A DNA stretch of 64,000 bases from Verrucomicrobiia bacterium (GTDB taxonomy: Bacteria > Verrucomicrobiota > Verrucomicrobiia > Verrucomicrobiales > DEV007), in NCBI GenBank assembly GCA_020439995.1, contig JAGROY010000140.1, forward strand, positions 1 to 64,000, given 5' to 3'. How positions within the stretch are numbered: the stretch's first letter is position 1; each line of letters begins with the position of its first letter. The notes under the pieces are model-generated. The model worked only from the letters and a program-made list of their open reading frames with translations, was not told where the DNA came from and ran no database searches. Below, piece after piece: positions 1,629 through 30,525 of this stretch. A program made the translations under genes and the position numbers.

Positions 1629-2308
1629 ATGCCTCTGTCCCTCCTTTTGAAACTTTCCCAGCCCTGAGTTCTGCAACGCCATGGGCGCGGCACGCATTTG
1701 TGCAACGGGTGCCGAAGGTGGTGGTGGATGTCGAGCGGGCGGAGGCTATGGAGCGGTTGCAGTCCGCGCACCTCGCAGCGGCGGAGGCGCTTGGATTTTC
1801 CAGCGATGCATTGTGGACGGCGGAGCAGGTGCACGGGAGAGAAGTTGCCCTGGTGCCGGATCCTTCGATTGATGGGCGAGTGATCGCCGGTGCGGATGGA
1901 CTGATCACTCGGACGCCTGGCTGTCTGCTGGGGATCTACGTCGCGGATTGTGGGCCTATTTATGTGGCGGACATCCAGAGCCGTGCCATTGCAGTTCTCC
2001 ATTCCGGTCGGGTTGGGACGGAGCTCAATATTCTGGCGAACTGCGTCGAACGCATGAAGCGCGAGTTTTCGACCCGAGTGGCTGATCTCGTGGTGCAGCT
2101 GGGGCCGTGCATTCGCCCCCCGGCGTATGAGGTGGACTTTGCCGCGCAGATCCTCGGGCAGGCCCGGGAGCTGGCCATTCCTGAAGAGCAGATTTTCGAC
2201 TGCGGCTCGTGCACGGCACAGGGGCTGGACAAATACTATTCCTACCGTCTCGAGAAGGGAAAAACCGGGAGAATGCTGGCGCTTTTCGGGATCCCTGCGG
2301 GAAAGTGA
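1625..2308 (+). CDS. pgeF: YfiH/PgeF-family multicopper-like peptidoglycan editing protein
   Basis: A cytoplasmic YfiH-family protein of 227 aa. Members have been described both as polyphenol oxidases and as enzymes that hydrolyse misincorporated L-Ser from peptidoglycan precursors. Family marks are EQVHG near residue 66, GADGLIT, YVADCGP (metal-binding Cys), AVLHSGRVG (metal-binding His) and LGPCIRPPAYEV. The usual HaGWrG tract reads HSGRVG here, so the Trp is lost but the His is kept. The start codon overlaps the stop of the upstream small ORF. ymdB follows after 62 nt. Confidence 0.85.
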   Translation: MNASVPPFETFPALSSATPWARHAFVQRVPKVVVDVERAEAMERLQSAHLAAAEALGFSSDALWTAEQVHGREVALVPDPSIDGRVIAGADGLITRTPGCLLGIYVADCGPIYVADIQSRAIAVLHSGRVGTELNILANCVERMKREFSTRVADLVVQLGPCIRPPAYEVDFAAQILGQARELAIPEEQIFDCGSCTAQGLDKYYSYRLEKGKTGRMLALFGIPAGK

Positions 2309-2370
2309 GCGGGAATCCTGGTTCCCAATTACTGGTGGACAATCATCTGGTGGGCCAGTAACAAACTTTT

Positions 2371-3279
2371 GTGGCTAATCCCAGCGTTCCCAATCCATCT
2401 GACGGCTCAGCGAGCCGGTTTCGTATCCTTTTTCTTGGCGATGTGGTCGGGGAGCCGGGGAGGAAGGCTGTGCTGTTCGCGCTCCGGCGCTTGAAGGAAG
2501 AGCTGTCGATCGATTTTGTGATCATCAATGGTGAGAACTCCGCCGGCGGTCGCGGCATCACTCCGCGCATTAGCATTGGCCTGCTGCGGGCAGGGGCAGC
2601 CGTCGTCACCACCGGTGATCACGTCTGGGATCAGAATGAAATTGTCGACTACATCGGCACTGAACCGCGCCTGTTGCGTCCGCTCAACTATCCGACTGGA
2701 GCGCCAGGGCAGGGATCGATTGTTCTTGAATCGGCGAAGACCAAGGTGGCGGTGGTCAATGTTCAGGGCCGCACTTTCATGAACAACGCTCTGGAGAATC
2801 CCTTCACGGCGATGGAAAAGGAAGTCGCCCGGTTGCGCGAGGAGACGCCGGTGATCTTCGTCGATATGCATGCGGAGACTACCAGTGAGAAAATTGCAAT
2901 GGGTCGCATGCTGGATGGCAAGGTATCCGCTGTGATCGGGACGCATACCCACGTGCAGACCGCAGACGAGCAGGTCTTTCCCGGCGGCACTGCGTTCCTT
3001 TGTGATGCAGGAATGTGTGGCCCGACTGAGTCAATCCTTGGCCGCACGATCGATCCCATCGTCAATCGCTTTCGCAGCAATATGCCCCAGCGCTTTCCCG
3101 TCGCACGAGGTGATGTCCGGTTGTGTGGAGCCTGTATTGAGATCGATCCTGCCACTGGCAAGGCGACTCATATCGAGCGGGTGTCCAGACTGGTCACCTG
3201 CGACAATGGTGAATGGAAAATGGAAGGCCAGCCACTGCGGTACGCTGGTGCCGAGGACGCCAACGAGGAAGAAGAATAG
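2371..3279 (+). CDS. ymdB: YmdB-family metallophosphoesterase
   Basis: A calcineurin-like metallophosphoesterase of the TIGR00282/YmdB family. Studied members hydrolyse cyclic nucleotides and influence multicellular behaviour. Metal-binding motifs in order are GDVVGEPGR, INGENSAGGRGIT, TTGDHVWDQ, HAETTSEK and GTHTHVQTAD, all intact. The usual TGGNHxWD reads TGDHVWDQ. Translation starts at GTG. At 302 aa it is somewhat longer than the usual 260-280 aa because of short tails. No signal peptide is seen, so it is cytoplasmic. A membrane protein gene begins 8 nt downstream, which suggests co-transcription. Confidence 0.9.
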   Translation: MANPSVPNPSDGSASRFRILFLGDVVGEPGRKAVLFALRRLKEELSIDFVIINGENSAGGRGITPRISIGLLRAGAAVVTTGDHVWDQNEIVDYIGTEPRLLRPLNYPTGAPGQGSIVLESAKTKVAVVNVQGRTFMNNALENPFTAMEKEVARLREETPVIFVDMHAETTSEKIAMGRMLDGKVSAVIGTHTHVQTADEQVFPGGTAFLCDAGMCGPTESILGRTIDPIVNRFRSNMPQRFPVARGDVRLCGACIEIDPATGKATHIERVSRLVTCDNGEWKMEGQPLRYAGAEDANEEEE

Positions 3280-3287
3280 CCAGCCAT

Positions 3288-3851
3288 ATGAGCCTGCAAA
3301 AATCCATCCTTCAAGGAGCGCTGCGATTCGCGGTGGTAAGCCTGATCGGCTACTCGCTCTGGGCGTGGTCGAACATGGGCACTGCGTTGCTCTACTCATC
3401 CATTGCCGTGGTATTTGTGGCTCTGTCAGGGGCAGCCTTGCGACCGCTGGGTGGTTCGGCGCGAACGCTGGCTCACTTTTACGGCGTGTTCGCCGCAGCG
3501 TTCATTTCCTATGCGGCGCTCTGGTGTGTGGGTTGGTTTGTGATCAAGGGGCACACTGGTGAGATCATTGGTTCGGCCTGCGGTCTGGCAGTCTGCGGGT
3601 GGATTCTGTTGAGGCTGGTGGGAGCGGAAAGTCAAACGCGGCACTTCCTGTCCGCCTGGGCCGTTCTGTTTTTGTTTCACACGTTGGGGTATACCGTCGG
3701 CGGCTGGGGCTACTACCATGGCTCGTCCAGTGGTGCCATTCCGCATGAGATGGCGCGACTGATCTGGGGGCTGGGACACGGACTAGGCTTTGGAGCCGGG
3801 CTGGGCTACGTGCTTTTTCACTGCCGCAGCGCTGGTCAAGGCGAAGCGTAG
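3288..3851 (+). CDS. Integral membrane protein of unknown function
   Basis: The product is 187 aa with about five hydrophobic helices, glycine- and aromatic-rich near the C-terminus (YTVGGWGYYHG, GLGHGLGFGAGLGY). I chose the ATG at 3288 (MSLQKSILQG), 8 nt after ymdB, because an upstream extension in this frame would run inside ymdB. No catalytic motif or known family is recognised. The last 16 nt overlap the convergent sulfatase gene. Confidence 0.7.
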   Translation: MSLQKSILQGALRFAVVSLIGYSLWAWSNMGTALLYSSIAVVFVALSGAALRPLGGSARTLAHFYGVFAAAFISYAALWCVGWFVIKGHTGEIIGSACGLAVCGWILLRLVGAESQTRHFLSAWAVLFLFHTLGYTVGGWGYYHGSSSGAIPHEMARLIWGLGHGLGFGAGLGYVLFHCRSAGQGEA

Positions 3852-5257
3852 TCTTTTCCATTCAGGCTACCCACCACCGATTTCAACCAGGGAGTCATCG
3901 CAGTCTGCATTTGTTTCACACGCTCTGGTTGTTCGGCGATCAGTGATTTGGATTCAAGGGGGTCCGTCTCAAGATTGTAAAGTTCCCAGATCACACCCGG
4001 CGCATCTTTCTTTACATTCTCGATGCGGTGCAGCTTCCATGGCCAGTCGAGCCAGGCGGCATGCCCGGGGAATGTTTCGTCGGAGTATTGTCTGGCGATG
4101 ACTCCGGCATCCAGTCGCAGTCGCTCCTTGTCGTCGAGTTCGGTGCCTGCTGCCTGGGAATCGAGCAGTTCCTTCATCCATTTCGCGCTCGGCACGCTGC
4201 GGCCACCTGCCTTGAAATCCCAGAACCCGATCGAAGCCGGACGATGCTTCACCTTGCCGTCGAGAATGTCGGCAATGCTGATGCCATCCCGCACGTGAGC
4301 CGTCCGCGGCTCCACTCCTGCCAGTTCCAGAACCGTGGGGAAAATGTCAGACGTCACGCAGGGGGTATCGATCATCTGTGCAGACTTGAAGCGTGCCGGC
4401 CATTCCAGAATCGCGGGCACGCGCAGGCCGCCTTCGTAGATGCTGCCCTTCTTCATGCGGCCGCCGGATGACTCAGGCATCAGGCCGCCGTTGTCGCTGC
4501 AGTACCAATAGATCGTATCATCCCGCAGGCCGAGTTCCGCGATGCCCGCGCGCAGTTTGCCGAGTGCTCGATCCATTCCAGTAATCTCACCGTAAAAGTT
4601 TGCCTTCTTGGTGGGTGTGTCAGGGTACTGTGCCAGATCTTCCGGGGCGGCAACGTGAGGAAGGTGCGGTGATCCGAACCATACTACTGCGAACGCTGGC
4701 GAGTCCTTCGTGGCGTTGCGTTTCAGAAAGTCCAGTGCAGCAGTCGCCGTGACATCCGAGCTTTCGCCAATCATTTGCTCAGCTTTGCCATTTCGGCTCA
4801 GGATGGGATCGTTCTCAAAAAAATTGGGAGCCGAAAGCCACTCGTCAAACCCGCATGCCCCCGGATGCACAGGGCTGGCCGTTTGCACGGATCCCAGATG
4901 CCACTTGCCAAAGTGCCCCGTCCTGTATCCGGCAGCGTGCAGGACTTCGGCCAGCGTATCTTCCTGCGGGCGAATGGGGTAGCCCCATTTGAATGTGCCC
5001 ATACGATTCGGATGGCGACCGGTGAGCACGCTGGCGCGCGTGGGCGAACACACCGGTGCCGCTGCGTAGAAGTGGTCGAAGCGGATTGCTTCAGCAGCAA
5101 ATTGGTCAAAATGGGGCGTCTTGAGATCGGGATGTCCGTTGTAAGCCATGTCGCCCCAGCCCTGATCGTCGGCCATCACGAGGACGATGTTGGGCCGGGC
5201 GGTCACGATCGCGGTCGAGAGGATCAGGGCGCCTAGAATCGAGAAGATACGTATCAT
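3836..5257 (-). CDS. Secreted sulfatase (type I, formylglycine-dependent)
   Basis: The product is 473 aa with an N-terminal signal peptide (hydrophobic core IFSILGALILSTAIV), so it is exported. The alkaline-phosphatase fold is recognised by PNIVLVMADDQGWGD, which supplies metal-binding Asp residues, and by the sulfatase signature CSPTRASVLTGRHP. Within CxPxR the Cys at residue 70 is the one converted to formylglycine. GKWHLG and YWYCSDNGG supply further active-site residues. Such enzymes remove sulfate esters from polysaccharides or small molecules; the substrate cannot be told here. It is convergent with the upstream membrane protein gene (16-nt overlap). No sulfatase-maturing enzyme is in the window. 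Confidence 0.92.
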   Translation of the reverse strand: MIRIFSILGALILSTAIVTARPNIVLVMADDQGWGDMAYNGHPDLKTPHFDQFAAEAIRFDHFYAAAPVCSPTRASVLTGRHPNRMGTFKWGYPIRPQEDTLAEVLHAAGYRTGHFGKWHLGSVQTASPVHPGACGFDEWLSAPNFFENDPILSRNGKAEQMIGESSDVTATAALDFLKRNATKDSPAFAVVWFGSPHLPHVAAPEDLAQYPDTPTKKANFYGEITGMDRALGKLRAGIAELGLRDDTIYWYCSDNGGLMPESSGGRMKKGSIYEGGLRVPAILEWPARFKSAQMIDTPCVTSDIFPTVLELAGVEPRTAHVRDGISIADILDGKVKHRPASIGFWDFKAGGRSVPSAKWMKELLDSQAAGTELDDKERLRLDAGVIARQYSDETFPGHAAWLDWPWKLHRIENVKKDAPGVIWELYNLETDPLESKSLIAEQPERVKQMQTAMTPWLKSVVGSLNGKDYASP

Positions 5258-5345
5258 CTCCGGCAGACTAGCCTGGCGACAGTTGCTTTGTCACTCCCGC
5301 ATCTGCCCTTGCAAAGGGGCGGCTTTCCGGGCACTCTGCGCGACG

Positions 5346-23844: not shown

Positions 23845-26800
23845 TCAGTCGCGGCGGACTTTGTTGCGGATCGACTCTGGTACCTCCTTCCACAGCGGCC
23901 CCAGCGCTTCTCGCAGTTGCTCTTGATCTACGGCTTTCAACGCAGTGTCTTTCCCAAGGTCGTTGATCACAAGTTCAGCGTCAAAGATCAGGTCGGAACT
24001 CGCTGGGTCGTACTGGTGCACGGCGATCGCCAGAGTGTTCTCGCCAGGAAGCAGGCGTTCAGTGGCGAAGGGGCCGGGGAAATAGCGGCTCTCATCGGCT
24101 CCTGATGTTTTCTCCAGCGCCCGTGTGGCAGGTGTGAGGTTGCCAGCTGGTAGATTGTCCCTGCGTACCTCTTCGCCATTGAGGTAAACGACTGCCGCAT
24201 CGTCGCGCAGGATACTGAAGGCGATCCGCTGCACCGTTTCGTTTTCACGAAGGAAGAATCTGGTGCGGAAGTAGGTCACAATGGGCTTCGACTGACGACG
24301 GCCGCCGAAGTCCACTGAAGTGCGGACTTTGGTGGATCCATAGCCAAGTGGAGCTGGGCCGCTCAGCCAGGATTCGTCGCTGGCGGATGGCTTCATCCAT
24401 CCGTCAGCCTGGGGAGCATTCGTGTATCTCCAGGAGTGCCCTTTGTGGATCAGCGAAACGATGCCGCCCGGCTTCCCCAGAGCCACATGCATGGAATTGA
24501 AATCCGTCAGCGCGCTGTCGAGCCGTCCTCCTGTAGAGCCTTTATCTTCGCGCTCCAGTTGCTGCAAAGTCTGCGCTGCCAGGAAGCCGAACGCCCATGC
24601 CTGCAAGTCGTTGCCGGATGCCTGCGCTTTGAGCCGGAGTGCCCGGAATACCGCAGCGGCGCTGAGGCGGCCCTGTGTCGAGTCCGGCTGAAGCTTGAGC
24701 CCGTTGGCAGCGAATTGCAGCATCTCCACCGCGTCGCGTTTTTCTGAAAGTGTCAGGATCCGCAGCTCTTTGAGCGTATTTTGGAATGCCACATTCTCGC
24801 TCTTGTCGAGCCGCTTCGCATCCAGTGTCTTCAGCGCTGCCAACGCTTCGGCAAAGCGTCCGTGGCGCTCGAGGAGATTTGCTTTTGCCAGGAAAGCCTT
24901 GGTGTACTGGCTGTTCTTTGCCGCAGGAGCGGCTTCGATCGCCACATCCCAACTGGCAAGCGCTGCGTCGATCTGGCCCGATCTTTCCTGAATGCCTGCC
25001 AGCTCTTCCGCCGCGTATCCGCTGCGCGGGGTCGTAGCGATCAATTCTGGCCCAATCCGGCAGAGCAACTGATCCGTGGCAATGTTCGCTGATAGCAGGT
25101 CTTTGAATAACCGCTTCTGACTGGAGAAAGACTGATCGCACATCGCCCGGTAGACCAAGCTGTCGTTGATGCCCCGCGTTGCCGCCTCCTGTTCCGCAGT
25201 AGAAAGGTTGCGATCGTTCGCAGCGCTACGCAGCAGGGAATCGAACCATTTCAAAAATCCGTCGTGGCCGCTAAGCAAGTCGTCGCGCAGGGCGGTGTCG
25301 AGTTCTGTCCAGGCCGTTTCGAATGCGGCGGCCTCGCCATCGAGCGCGTGATAGATGAGTGCCAGTGCGGCAAAACGCCCAGTGAACTGCCCGTTCAGTT
25401 GGGTCAGCTCAGGACGGGCCAGGAGTGCGAGGAAGGCCGTGAGGTTTTCCTTGCGGAGTGGGGTTGCCCATTTCGCTGACTCATCGTCGAACGCCTGGTG
25501 CACACTGGACATCAGCGCGCCCACGGTCATCGCTACATCAAACGACCGTGGTGGTGAAGGCAAGGCATCCAGAAAGGAGATGAGCGCACCGGGGCCCTGG
25601 TTGAGAGATTGTCCCAGCCAGGTCGCGACGATGCGGCGCTTGCCGTCGCCTCCTGGCCTGGCGAACTCTTGCGGCTGGATGCTTGCACCCGCCCGCGCAT
25701 AGGCCTGTACCAGAGATTCGGTCACGTCGGGTTCTTCGGTGAACCAGCGCAGAGCCGCCATCTCGATCTCAGGAGCTGATCCAAAGTCGAGCGCCTGATA
25801 TTCTTCCGCCAGTTCGGTGAGGCGCCGCTCGCGCTCCCTGAAGGTTTGCGAATCGTTGGTTCCCGAAAGTGGTTGATCTGGAAGCGCTGCAACGGTGACG
25901 CGCAACAGCCAGCGAAGTCGCGCATCGTCGATCTGGGCAATGACCAGCGGCAGCCTCACGTTCGCGAGATCCTCGTCGTAGACATACTTTGAAATGTTGG
26001 GGCTGGCGGTGCGAAGGTCGAACAGCGGGGCGAACTCGACGAAGTAGTCGGCGGCAATCGCGGGCTCCGCGTAATGGAGCACCGTCAGCAGCCACCGGAG
26101 GTCGGCGCTGGTCACGGGCACCGCAGTGAGCTGCTTCAGTGCATCGTTGTTGCCCGATTGAACGCAGAGATCGATCAGTTCGCTCAGTAGCGCACTTGCC
26201 ACCAGATTCGGTCTGGAAGCCGGGGTGGCGGAAAAATCGTCTTGCAGCCGGGTGGCCCAGGCTGTCGCGACCGTGCCGAATGCACCAGCGAACTCTGGTT
26301 CGGTCGCGTGTATTCCCGCGTGGCTGAGCAGCGCCCTTGCGTGTGCCGGAAGGACAGCGCCCTCCTTCATGCCAGCCTCCATCGCACCCCATCCAGCCAC
26401 GTGCACGGGCAGTGGGAGCAAGTCACCCCATTCGTTGAGAACGGTTTCAGCGATCAGCAGCCGGGCCATGGCTGGCAGTTCGGGAGAGGCAATGCGCTCC
26501 AGGAAGTAGTCTGCGTGGCTAGCTCCGGCCGTGGCATCATCGCTGAGGCGCGCCAGTCCCATCTGGCCAGCGATCAGCATTTCGCGTGCGAGCGCAGTGC
26601 GTTTTGGGCTGGTAGACAGGGTCGCCTCTCGCCGTAGAGCGTCCAGCAGTTCCTTGAACTCATCTTCGCTGCTGGCCATGCGCTGAAAGAACGTGTGGTA
26701 GCCTGGCATCGCGGTCACAATGTTTTCCTCGGATAGGTCTGCCTCCAGCTGATCCAGCGCTGACTTGATTGCATCCGTCGCAGGCGAGGACAGTTCTCCA

Positions 26801-27336
26801 TTTGTGATCGACGAAATAAGGAACCCGACCCGATAGCGATCCACGAACACTCCTTCACCGGCAATCACTCGTAAGGCGCTGAGCGCAAAATCAGCATGTT
26901 TCAGTCCGGGTTGCGTTTCCAGCCCCGCTCCGCCGATCATCAACTGATTGTTCAGGTATCCAGCTACCGTGATCCTCTCATTGAACTGGATGCCCCACTC
27001 GCGCGACGCTTCGGCTGCATGAATCAATGCAATCGCTTTCTGGAAAACGTTCATTGCCTCGGCTGCGGACCCCTTTGTAATCAACTCCGTCAGAACTTCG
27101 TCAGTCTCACTCAAGAACTGCAGAGGATTGAGCCCCAGAGCGCGGAATTGCTCTGCTTCCAGAATGTGTCGGGCGCGTTCCTCGACGGTGACTGCCACCT
27201 CTGCCGGGAACTCTTCGACCGGCTCCGGCGCGGCGTCTTGCCCGCTTCCGCTGCCCGTCAAACCGACCAACACTAGAAAACAAAGCGTTAACCGCCTGAT
27301 ACAGAATTGAATATCGTACCTTGGCTGAATCCTCAT
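23845..27336 (-). CDS. Large secreted repeat protein with C-terminal galactose-binding-like domain
   Basis: The product is about 1163 aa. I chose the ATG at 27336 because it places a signal peptide (RRLTLCFLVLVGLTGSGSG) at the N-terminus; the frame is open 35 codons further upstream. Most of the protein is alpha-helical and Ala/Leu-rich, with TPR-like segments near residues 770-860 (SGQIDAALASWDVAIEAAP, HGRFAEALAALKTL). The last 200 residues form a beta-sandwich with SGPAPLGYG, TYFRTRFFL, DDAAVVYLNGEEVRRDNLP and GENTLAIAVHQYDPASSDL, a module common in Planctomycetes/Verrucomicrobia. No catalytic site is recognised. Confidence 0.75.
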   Translation of the reverse strand: MRIQPRYDIQFCIRRLTLCFLVLVGLTGSGSGQDAAPEPVEEFPAEVAVTVEERARHILEAEQFRALGLNPLQFLSETDEVLTELITKGSAAEAMNVFQKAIALIHAAEASREWGIQFNERITVAGYLNNQLMIGGAGLETQPGLKHADFALSALRVIAGEGVFVDRYRVGFLISSITNGELSSPATDAIKSALDQLEADLSEENIVTAMPGYHTFFQRMASSEDEFKELLDALRREATLSTSPKRTALAREMLIAGQMGLARLSDDATAGASHADYFLERIASPELPAMARLLIAETVLNEWGDLLPLPVHVAGWGAMEAGMKEGAVLPAHARALLSHAGIHATEPEFAGAFGTVATAWATRLQDDFSATPASRPNLVASALLSELIDLCVQSGNNDALKQLTAVPVTSADLRWLLTVLHYAEPAIAADYFVEFAPLFDLRTASPNISKYVYDEDLANVRLPLVIAQIDDARLRWLLRVTVAALPDQPLSGTNDSQTFRERERRLTELAEEYQALDFGSAPEIEMAALRWFTEEPDVTESLVQAYARAGASIQPQEFARPGGDGKRRIVATWLGQSLNQGPGALISFLDALPSPPRSFDVAMTVGALMSSVHQAFDDESAKWATPLRKENLTAFLALLARPELTQLNGQFTGRFAALALIYHALDGEAAAFETAWTELDTALRDDLLSGHDGFLKWFDSLLRSAANDRNLSTAEQEAATRGINDSLVYRAMCDQSFSSQKRLFKDLLSANIATDQLLCRIGPELIATTPRSGYAAEELAGIQERSGQIDAALASWDVAIEAAPAAKNSQYTKAFLAKANLLERHGRFAEALAALKTLDAKRLDKSENVAFQNTLKELRILTLSEKRDAVEMLQFAANGLKLQPDSTQGRLSAAAVFRALRLKAQASGNDLQAWAFGFLAAQTLQQLEREDKGSTGGRLDSALTDFNSMHVALGKPGGIVSLIHKGHSWRYTNAPQADGWMKPSASDESWLSGPAPLGYGSTKVRTSVDFGGRRQSKPIVTYFRTRFFLRENETVQRIAFSILRDDAAVVYLNGEEVRRDNLPAGNLTPATRALEKTSGADESRYFPGPFATERLLPGENTLAIAVHQYDPASSDLIFDAELVINDLGKDTALKAVDQEQLREALGPLWKEVPESIRNKVRRD

Positions 27337-27860
27337 CGTCGCACGGGTTGCTGCTCTCACGGTCGGAAGCATAACTCGATCTCGGCGGGATTCCAAGCTC
27401 TCCCATACATGCCAGCGAAAATTGGACGTCATGTTCGACAAGTATTACCCCGGTAATTTCTCCGGCCTTGATACTCGTGATGCAACTGCGAGAAATTGAA
27501 GCGAAACCCGATTTTGCAGTCAATCACGCACACCCCTTCATGCCTACCAATCGTGAGGGAAGTCCAACGGGCTCTTCCGCTCCTTACCCGTCCGGGAGGG
27601 AACGGTTTGCACGTAGATCATCGTCGTTCGCACATCGCTGTGTTCCCAGGCGATCTACCGCCTCCCGGCGGTGAATTCCAAAGACAACTCGGTACCTGCG
27701 CTAGGTTGGGTGCGGAAAGAGTGCGGTAATCAATTGATTTGGAGAATATCAGATAACTTCAAGGAGCTTTTTGGTCAGGGGGACGCGTCTGGTGTTGAAA
27801 AACGCTGTCGAGACCGATGCACTCCAGATCGTTGTTGCAATGAAGCCGCGCCTGTTGGTG
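27337..27860. other. Gap holding a recombinase scrap, otherwise unassigned
   Basis: About 520 bp separate two minus-strand genes. Apart from the 108-bp tyrosine-recombinase remnant, I see no gene, RNA or strong terminator. It looks like the residue of an old mobile-element insertion. Confidence 0.45.
27544..27651 (-). pseudogene. Tyrosine recombinase (integrase) C-terminal scrap
   Basis: The minus-strand frame reads WEHSDVRTTMIYVQT, then KSPLDFPHDW and a stop. This matches the last motif of phage/integron integrases, (L)GHSDVxTTMIYTHV...SPLD. It contains the catalytic His and the nucleophile Tyr. Upstream the frame breaks at a stop 6 nt before the Trp codon, and no further recombinase residues are seen. 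Only about 35 codons survive, so it is a remnant. Confidence 0.72.
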
Positions 27861-30188
27861 TCAGTTCGATGCTGCTGACTGTTTCAAAGCATCTCTTACG
27901 ACACCCTGTGTGACTATCGTCGGAAACTCAATAATTGGGCCGTTCGGGGGGACGATCAGATTGTAAGGGATTCCGCTCGAGCCGAAGGCGAAGAGGGCCT
28001 CGTCATAAAGAGCATTGGAATTGGTCATATCTGCCAGCATCATCACTACTCCATTACTGCGGAGCTCTTCTTTCAACTGATCAGAACCTGCGGATTCGAA
28101 GACAACTGTCTCGTTTGTTTTGCATTGCAGTCACCAGTCGGCGGTGAAGTCAATGAATACTGTCCTGCCTTTCTTCCGGTGTTCCACCAGACGTTCGAGG
28201 GTGAGCGGCTCCCATTTCATTCCGTGGGAGTCAATCATTCCGCTGGAGTCCAGGGTAGCCACAGACATTGAACCGTTGTCGATCGAATGTTTCACCGCAT
28301 AAACACTTCCAGTGAATGCCAGCAGCAGTGTGATGCGGGCCGCCCAGCGTGTTCCCACTTTCTTGAAGGGCGTTCCAAATCGCCCGTAGATCCACAGTCC
28401 AAAGGCCAGGCTAAGCATCCCAACTAACAGACCCACGATACCGCTGACGCCCACCTGCTTTCCAAAGACCCAAACCAGCCAGACAACTGTCGCCAGCATG
28501 GGGAACGCCATGAATTGTTTAAAAGTCTCCATCCACGCTCCCGGCCTGGGGAGCTTTTGAATGAGTGCGGGAAAGAAGCTGAGCACGATGTAAGGAGAGG
28601 CGAGTCCCAGCCCTAACACTGTAAAAATCAGCAGCGTCTGTGCTGCCGACTGATTGAACGCAAAACTGATCGCGGGTGCCATGAATGGCCCAGTGCATGG
28701 TGAGGCGATCAGCACCGTCAGCAATCCTGAGAAAAACGAGCCCGACAGTCCCTTCTTGTTTTGCAGTTGGCCACCAGCCGTAGTGAGCGATGCGCCAAAT
28801 TCAAACAGACCAGCGAGACTTAATCCAAAGGCGAAGATCACGGCGATCATTGCGGCCACAAACCACGGCTGTCGCAATTGCTCACCCCACACGACATTTC
28901 CACCGGTCGAAAATTTGACGAGCAACAGAACGATCACCAGCGACCACATACTGAGCAATACCCCGGCTCCGAACGCCAGGCCATGCATCTTGATTCGCTT
29001 GCTGTCTTCCCCTGCCTGGCTCACGAAGCCCATGATTTTGATTCCGAGCACTGGAAAAACGCAGGGCATCAGATTCAGAATCAATCCACCCAGAAAGGCG
29101 AATCCAAGGATAGGCAGAAGGGTTTCCTTCTTTTCCTCCTTCGTCCCAAGGGGGGTCATCCCCCAGCTGATGACTTCGTCCAGTGCTGCTTTCTCAGCGG
29201 GTGTCATTGCCGTCGGAACGGCGGAAGGACTCGCTTTTGCACTGGCAGGTTGTTCAGCTTCGCCGACCCCGGCACCATCTGCATCAGGAATGGATGCCGC
29301 CACAGCCATCTCTCCACCTTCAGGTAATGTCACGGAAACGACCGTGCCATCCGATCCCCAGCCATTCTCAGCGTAAGCGAATCCTTTGAGTCCGGTCACG
29401 GCACCAGCGTCCTCTTCCTTTTCAAAAGTGGCCACATAGCTGTCGCCCTGCTTTTCTGCGGCTGCGGACGGTTCCACAAGTACTCCTTTGGCTAGATGAT
29501 AGACGTGCACTTTGCCTTCTTTCATCTCGCCAGATGGTGTGATCTTTACCTGAACGGACTTACCTTGATCCTCGATCGCTATATCGATCAAATCGGAATC
29601 AGCGGGTTGCTGCGCCCTTACTTTGTCGAACGCTGCCTTCAGTGCTGCGTCAGGGGTTGGAGCTTCTGAAACGACGGGAAGCTTAAGCTCGCCATTGTAG
29701 CTGCCTGGAGTGCAGATCTCGTCGCACTGCAGCCAGTTGGCCTTCAGTCCGATAGAGATATTTCCTCCCACTGCTACATTGTCAGCGACGGCGATGTCGG
29801 TAAGTAGATAGGCCGTGCCGCCGTAAACATTGCTGGTGCCGATCTCATCTTTCTTCGGCTCCGGCACTGGCCACTGGATGGGGCCAGCGGTGAGGCCTTC
29901 GGGCAGCGTCCAGTTGAGCTGAGTTGGTCGGCCAGTTCCGGGATTTTCCCAGTAGGTGTGCCAGGGGCCGCTGTGCACCATTTTCAGCGCGACCGTAAAA
30001 GTGGTTCCCGGCTGCACCGCCGAAACTTCGCTCACCAGCTCAGCGGCCACTTCTTCGCCCGGAGGCGTGGCTGCCGCGAATGGGTCGTTTACAAAGTTAG
30101 GGCCCTGTGCGTCCGAGCGATCGGGCGAGAACAGAACAAACGTGCACATCAACAGTGCGATGGAGCGGGCAACAGAAGGCATCAGCAT
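27861..30188 (-). CDS. dsbD: DsbD-family thiol:disulfide interchange protein, probable selenoprotein (UGA at 28131-28133)
   Basis: The frame is continuous over 776 codons apart from one TGA (28133-28131). Domains in order: signal peptide; DsbD-alpha-like domain with WHTYWENPGTG and WLQCDEICTPG; eight-helix transporter with the redox cysteines in NLMPCVFPVLGIK and ASPCTGPFMAP; C-terminal thioredoxin domain with VFIDFTADW, then the TGA, then LQCK, NETVVFESAG and GIPYNLIVPPNG. Homologues have Cys where the TGA stands (W-C-x-x-C-K), so the motif becomes U686-x-x-C689. The protein would pass electrons from the cytoplasm to periplasmic proteins. A SECIS-like hairpin follows the TGA. The alternative is a single-base Cys-to-stop mutation (TGC or TGT to TGA). 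Confidence 0.78.
28097..28113 (-). promoter_or_regulatory. Candidate bacterial SECIS hairpin
   Basis: Starting 18 nt after the UGA, the minus strand reads CGAGACAGTTGTCTTCG. It folds into a 6-bp stem (CGA-GAC with GTC-TCG), with one bulged U on the 3' side and the loop AGUU. The loop GU lies 25-26 nt from the UGA. Bacterial SECIS elements usually place a small hairpin with a G in the first loop positions at a comparable distance, and the E. coli fdhF element also has a bulged U. Confidence 0.55.
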
Positions 30189-30246: not shown

Positions 30247-30525
30247 TTACGGCTGGGAAGGTGAACTATCACTGAATGAAGGGCTCTTTCTGTGCTGGCC
30301 ATCAAAGATGATCGACTTTCCCTTCTCCAGTGTGAACTTCAGTGGGCCTAGTCCCGTCCCTTTGTGGCTTCCATCACAGAACGGGAGTGCCTCCGAGCTG
30401 CCGCAGGTGCACCACCAGTAGTCGCCAGCTTCGAGATTGAGGGTTTGGGGCTGTTTTTCATCATTTTCGGGATCTTCCATCTTGCCATTGTCGCGGGAAT
30501 TGGTGCTCTCGTCAAAGTAAAGCAA
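30247..30525 (-). CDS. CDGSH-type iron-sulfur protein
   Basis: The motif WWCTCGSSEALPFCDGSH fits C-x-C-x2-S-x3-P-x-C-D-G-S-H exactly, giving three Cys and one His ligands for a 2Fe-2S cluster as in mitoNEET-like proteins. The frame is 92 aa. The Met at residue 16 (MEDPENDEK, start at 30480) gives a more typical small CDGSH protein. No signal peptide is seen. It is divergent from the dynamin-like GTPase gene, with 68 nt between them. It may act in redox or Fe-S handling, like the DsbD-family neighbour, but no direct link is shown. Confidence 0.87.
   Translation of the reverse strand: MLYFDESTNSRDNGKMEDPENDEKQPQTLNLEAGDYWWCTCGSSEALPFCDGSHKGTGLGPLKFTLEKGKSIIFDGQHRKSPSFSDSSPSQP

Follow-up and report, generated by a model that had tools for sequence, protein, structure and literature searches.

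Replacement of the attacking cysteine of a thioredoxin fold by selenocysteine (Sec), which gives a UxxC motif, is a well-established kind of event. The domain cd02953, which we take to be the gamma domain of DsbD, is a case in point. In the GOS selenoproteome, a family designated 'Trx-like 2 (Thiol disulfide interchange protein), cd02953, UxxC' comprises 22 Sec sequences (Zhang and Gladyshev 2008, PMC2398784). If cd02953 is what we presume, the substitution had already been seen in 2008 at the level of the domain. These sequences have Sec at the first cysteine of UxxC, as is predicted for the DsbD described here, the GOS entries being metagenomic fragments classified by domain and set beside our protein by description rather than by sequence.

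The DsbD protein of E. coli (1uc7, 2fwe) shares the three-domain plan and the membrane cysteine pair with our protein, and the WCxxCK of its gamma domain corresponds to WUxxCK, with cysteine where our protein is predicted to have Sec. The cysteines of the alpha domain are spaced CxxxxxC in E. coli DsbD, whereas those of our protein are spaced CxxxC.

The gene lies in the window, the whole stretch of 64,000 nucleotides that was analysed, and its features are collected in Table 1. Translated, the gene has 775 codons before its terminal TGA, and its frame is interrupted just once, by a TGA in the context ...FIDFTADW-stop-LQCKTNETVVF.... The first-pass annotation had placed both the gene and this TGA correctly, the gene being on the minus strand. 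It was also right that no second stop interrupts the frame, that DsbD sequence stands on both sides of the TGA (DsbD_N and DsbD_TM before it and Thioredoxin_7 across it in Pfam), and that the TGA replaces the first redox cysteine of CxxC, since residue 686 aligns to the first cysteine of DsbD-gamma. All three Pfam matches exceeded their gathering scores, and the Thioredoxin_7 match in the read-through protein ran through the TGA without a break. A phmmer search of the PDB returned DsbD chains only (1uc7, 2fwe, 4ip6 and others), and in the alignment to the gamma structures residue 686 corresponds to the first cysteine of DWCxxCK. DsbD_N, DsbD_TM and a C-terminal thioredoxin domain, the three-domain plan of DsbD, were found in a single chain, with redox pairs in all three domains as taken from the sequence: C155/C159 (the candidate pair of the alpha domain, in WLQCDEIC), C376/C498 and U686/C689. 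By these alignments the predicted fold of the protein is fixed by homology. The score against NCBIfam NF001419 (PRK00293, protein-disulfide reductase DsbD) was 113.5 bits, under the cut-off of 330, and we therefore assign the protein to the DsbD family by its domains and not to the PRK00293 subfamily. The N-terminus (MLMPSVARSIALLMCTFVLF...AQG), judged by eye, resembles a signal peptide.

Table 1. Features of the predicted Sec-containing DsbD gene in the window.
Feature	Position	Strand	Detail or basis
Putative Sec-containing DsbD gene, 775 residues	27861..30188	(-)	ATG at 30188; terminal TGA 27863-27861
In-frame TGA, codon 686, predicted Sec U686 of W-U-x-x-C	28131..28133	(-)	Translation, homologue comparison
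DsbD_N, alpha-like periplasmic domain, residues 54-164	29697..30029	(-)	Pfam PF11412, 58.6 bits
DsbD_TM, beta/membrane domain, residues 361-572, with C376 and C498	28473..29108	(-)	PF02683, 60.7 bits
Thioredoxin_7, gamma/C-terminal periplasmic domain, residues 665-748	27945..28196	(-)	PF13899, 39.8 bits; DsbD-gamma structures
Resolving cysteine C689 of UxxC	28122..28124	(-)	Cys in 47/47 Sec forms
SECIS-like hairpin: stem of 6 bp with one bulged U, AGUU in the apical loop, -4.7 kcal/mol	28097..28113	(-)	CGAGACAGUUGUCUUCG folding

We read this as a functional selenoprotein gene in which UGA 686 would be decoded as Sec by means of tRNA-Sec, SelB and a SECIS element, and we put the probability of this reading at about 0.96. 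On the comparisons given below, the apparent mid-gene stop is a predicted coding signal, common to dozens of related Verrucomicrobiales.

Forty-seven distinct sequences, the window included, from many assemblies, have TGA at the equivalent of codon 686 (the Sec forms), and the 110 other homologues have TGC (86) or TGT (24) and no further codon at the position. With 47 TGA against 110 TGC or TGT at the same codon, the TGA is not there by chance, and its presence in independent genomes makes sequencing error implausible. The relay cysteines are kept in the Sec forms: C376 in 46 of 47 (one gap), C498 and C689 in all 47. A DsbD with exactly one TGA was found in 11 of 37 related genomes, counting the genome of the window (G000), which is a draft assembly of 8.83 Mb in 490 contigs, 91.7% complete. 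Sec forms are known from Verrucomicrobiales, where the named members are MAGs (L059, L080, L096, L118, L128), and in a sample of 388 genomes from the phylum the 33 additional homologues that were examined as sequences were all Cys forms. Homologues with one TGA outside the order (G693, G466, G613, G438, G460, G555, G678) have Cys at the codon and were rejected as Sec forms; their TGA is taken as terminal because the sole stop seen in realigned matches (L246) is close to the C-terminus of its match. An extra TAG in G286 is a terminal stop, not an internal one. One genome, G163, has one Sec-DsbD and two Cys-DsbD copies (L189, L190, L163). In the 91.7% of G000 that is assembled, no second full DsbD was found and one match reached E < 1e-20, so the relay may need selenium in this organism, an argument limited by the missing part of the genome.

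Coding constraint was tested in relatives, the window gene being without a close relative that carries the region past the UGA. In close Sec-form pairs, the dN/dS of the sequence past the UGA and the hairpin was 0.03-0.18 in most computable cases, and that of the 200 codons before the UGA was similar. The exceptions after the UGA were distant pairs, L031/L034 with 0.34 and window/L030 with 0.36, the synonymous sites of the latter pair being near-saturated. By these values, selection past the UGA is strongly purifying in close Sec-form pairs. They bear on a regulated stop, by which the gene would mainly make a gamma-less alpha-beta DsbD, with the full-length Sec protein as a minor, selenium-dependent product. 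UGA recoding always competes with termination, which is a point for such a stop, and the truncation would leave the alpha and beta domains intact. However, the downstream domain is selected about as strongly as the upstream part, which means that the full-length form matters, and in E. coli DsbD the relay is expected to fail without gamma, which also counts against it. We consider a regulated stop of this kind quite improbable.

The selenoprotein reading calls for decoding machinery, and selA, selB, selC and selD, the genes that the first-pass annotation had proposed looking for, are all found in G000, spread over four contigs. The tRNA-Sec gene (selC, on C32) scored 62.8 bits, the gathering score being 47, and has the anticodon TCA according to ARAGORN; selA (C45, 483.1 bits), selB (C85, 283.5 bits) and selD (C192, 263.4 bits) are above their curated cut-offs. 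The selD frame (L025 277-2538, G000:C192) has 753 residues, with an FAD/NADH dehydrogenase-like N-terminal half and a SelD part that contains a CxxC, and from its sequence looks like the Ndh-SelD fusion type, which is given as common in marine samples (PMC2398784). Among related genomes, selA is present in 45 of 50 with Sec forms versus 23 of 64 with Cys forms; four of the five Sec-form genomes without selA have selB, and the fifth (G229) is 54% complete. This association is not independent evidence, since it follows the phylogeny, and a phylogeny-aware look at it had too few independent contrasts and low power.

Across the Sec forms a hairpin lies 19-36 nt past the UGA, with GU at its apex. 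The hairpin of the window by itself is modestly unusual (z -1.26 against dinucleotide shuffles; rank 0.02 among synonymous recodings). We compared a fixed 24-nt segment, +19 to +42 after the UGA, with synonymous recodings that used each gene's own codon use. The mean folding energy in the 47 Sec forms was -5.8 kcal/mol versus -2.3 for the recodings, with 57% of the sequences in the best 5%, whereas in the 110 Cys forms it was -1.9 versus -1.7 kcal/mol, with 3% in the best 5%. The hairpin of the Sec forms is thus far more stable than synonymous recodings, and it is absent in Cys forms. Folding of the 48 nt past the UGA gave a mean z of -0.9 and is uninformative, since pairings over this longer stretch mask the local hairpin.

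Three registers of the hairpin recur: GAGAAG-CGUGU-CUUCUC; GAAGC-GGUCA-GCUUC and bulged variants, the window among them; and GAACA-GUU-UGUUC. They overlie different peptides (NEKRVFS, NEAVSF and NEQFVLH) and nearly all have GU in the apical loop, so that the clade shows a SECIS-like element held while the overlying protein changes. Over the 28 gap-free rows that follow the first register, 95.4% of cells are paired. Two compensatory exchanges were seen, C27-G33 to G27-C33 (20 and 8 sequences) and U21-A39 to C21-G39 (18 and 5 sequences). In nearly all rows column 33 falls on the third position of a codon for Val (GUG/GUC), and the 21-39 exchange is, from the alignment, synonymous on both sides (AAU/AAC for Asn, UCA/UCG for Ser). 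The covariation score was 0.312 versus 0.183 in shuffles, none of 500 shuffles scored as high, and slid controls gave at most 0.086. The stems of the Sec forms L172, L177 and L184 contain mismatches. L047 (G004) and L167 (G154), which belong to the same genus and have the UGA at the same codon, have no hairpin at the usual position; their SECIS may be elsewhere or of another type. With these two excepted, the Sec forms have what is expected of a bacterial selenoprotein SECIS, a hairpin shortly past the UGA whose apical loop contains G.

The hairpin also bears on the possibility of readthrough without selenium, in which a suppressor tRNA, a near-cognate one or a reassigned one would insert an ordinary residue (Trp or Cys) at the UGA. 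An open frame beyond the UGA, taken alone, fits any readthrough. However, the terminal codon of the gene is itself TGA, so UGA still terminates and is not globally reassigned; TGC and TGT are the only alternatives to TGA at the codon; the covarying hairpin accompanies the UGA and is missing where the codon is one for Cys; and the Sec genes are present in the genome. We give selenium-free readthrough very little credence. Least credible is a true stop, in a pseudogene or through an assembly error, for although the assembly is a draft in 490 contigs, the TGA is common to 47 distinct sequences from many assemblies, no further stop or frameshift occurs, the relay cysteines are kept, and dN/dS past the TGA is low in close pairs.

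Taken together, the Sec genes, the homologues, the hairpin and the downstream selection strongly support the call of a probable selenoprotein made in the first-pass annotation. The homologues, which it had suggested aligning at this codon, have Cys or UGA there and nothing else, and the scattered inactivating changes that it had named as evidence to the contrary were not seen, the gene being otherwise intact with its other relay cysteines kept. Its premise that Sec for a catalytic Cys is an established pattern in thioredoxin folds agrees with the known UxxC selenoproteins. The SECIS-like hairpin, absent from that annotation, was found in the follow-up and covaries.

We removed the Sec column and built a quick maximum-likelihood tree of 124 rows, in which all 47 Sec forms fell into one clade of 50 rows (SH-aLRT 96). 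The three other rows of the clade are Cys forms, L032, L054 and L156, and they are without the hairpin (-2.1, -1.1 and 0.0 kcal/mol, respectively). The genome of L054 (G025) has neither selA nor selB, that of L156 (G244) has selA and no selB over the cut-off, and that of L032 (G032) has both. When Opitutae and further Cys forms serve as the outgroup, the tree is read most simply as one putative gain of Sec and about three reversions to Cys, the placement of L054 and L032 being less sure because of their long branches. This natural series, together with the mixed copies in G163, could be used to learn what selenium buys a periplasmic electron relay.

As to the genes around the Sec-DsbD, a gene for a CDGSH iron-sulfur protein (window 30247-30525, minus strand) lies 58 bp upstream, on the strand of the DsbD gene. 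The Sec-DsbD of G010 (L255) also has a CDGSH gene nearby, and that of G011 (L267) has a frame homologous to it in its vicinity. The surroundings of 16 Sec-form loci showed nothing conserved with the window beyond a CDGSH-type frame in two of them. Immediately downstream of the DsbD gene is an open frame of 1,198 residues with no Pfam match (window 23845-27441, minus strand). In L253, a SecA gene of 1,040 residues by Pfam (2143-5265) lies on the same strand just upstream of the Sec-DsbD, and one Sec-DsbD subclade has this gene or a homologue upstream (counterparts in L254, L256, L257 and L267).

The recoded codon, the machinery, the covarying hairpin and the downstream constraint are the computed part of the explanation. 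In the mechanism that we propose, SelB and tRNA-Sec would be recruited by the apical-GU hairpin that starts about 20 nt past the UGA. The protein, going by what is known of DsbD, would be exported and span the inner membrane. By analogy with the E. coli protein, the membrane pair C376/C498 would hand electrons to U686-C689 of the gamma domain in the periplasm, from where they would move on to the alpha pair C155/C159, the presumed reductant of substrates with disulfides in the periplasm or among secreted proteins. The nucleophilic attack would be made by U686, which would form a selenylsulfide with C689 in each cycle. Where Sec insertion fails, as might happen in a shortage of selenium, translation would end at residue 685; the product would then have no catalytic gamma core, and the relay would be expected to fail. 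Gene finders that take UGA as a stop would likewise call these genes truncated at residue 685, with the catalytic domain lost.

A text search of PMC2398784 found no mention of Verrucomicrobia or DsbD, and the available text of that paper does not describe the full-length architecture, the single origin or the reversions. The available text of a 2026 inventory of prokaryotic selenoproteins (PMC13188914) contains no three-domain Sec-DsbD. The closest entry in that inventory, which is nevertheless different, is TsoB (NF045694), a rhodanese/DsbD fusion-like selenoprotein; its profile aligns to residues 355-745 of our protein, which scored 128.1 bits against the TsoB cut-off of 805 bits. The same text lists TsoB as rhodanese form 5, with the motif UxxxxU and two Sec, and also lists a PF13098 thiol:disulfide interchange protein with UxxC (PMC13188914). 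The latter, from Geobacter and Syntrophus, is likewise a UxxC thioredoxin-fold selenoprotein, but it is filed under Thioredoxin_2, whereas our protein combines Thioredoxin_7 with DsbD_N and DsbD_TM. The open-access literature searched seems to contain no description of the clade, of its origin in one gain, of the returns to Cys or of the SECIS in several registers. We think it likely that this is a clade-wide, full-length Sec-DsbD, a selenylsulfide conduit across the inner membrane that was gained once in Verrucomicrobiales and repeatedly reverted, with its SECIS in at least three coding registers, and that it is absent from current inventories. It is fair to regard the full-length Sec-DsbD as new, and the replacement of Cys by Sec in UxxC folds as already known.
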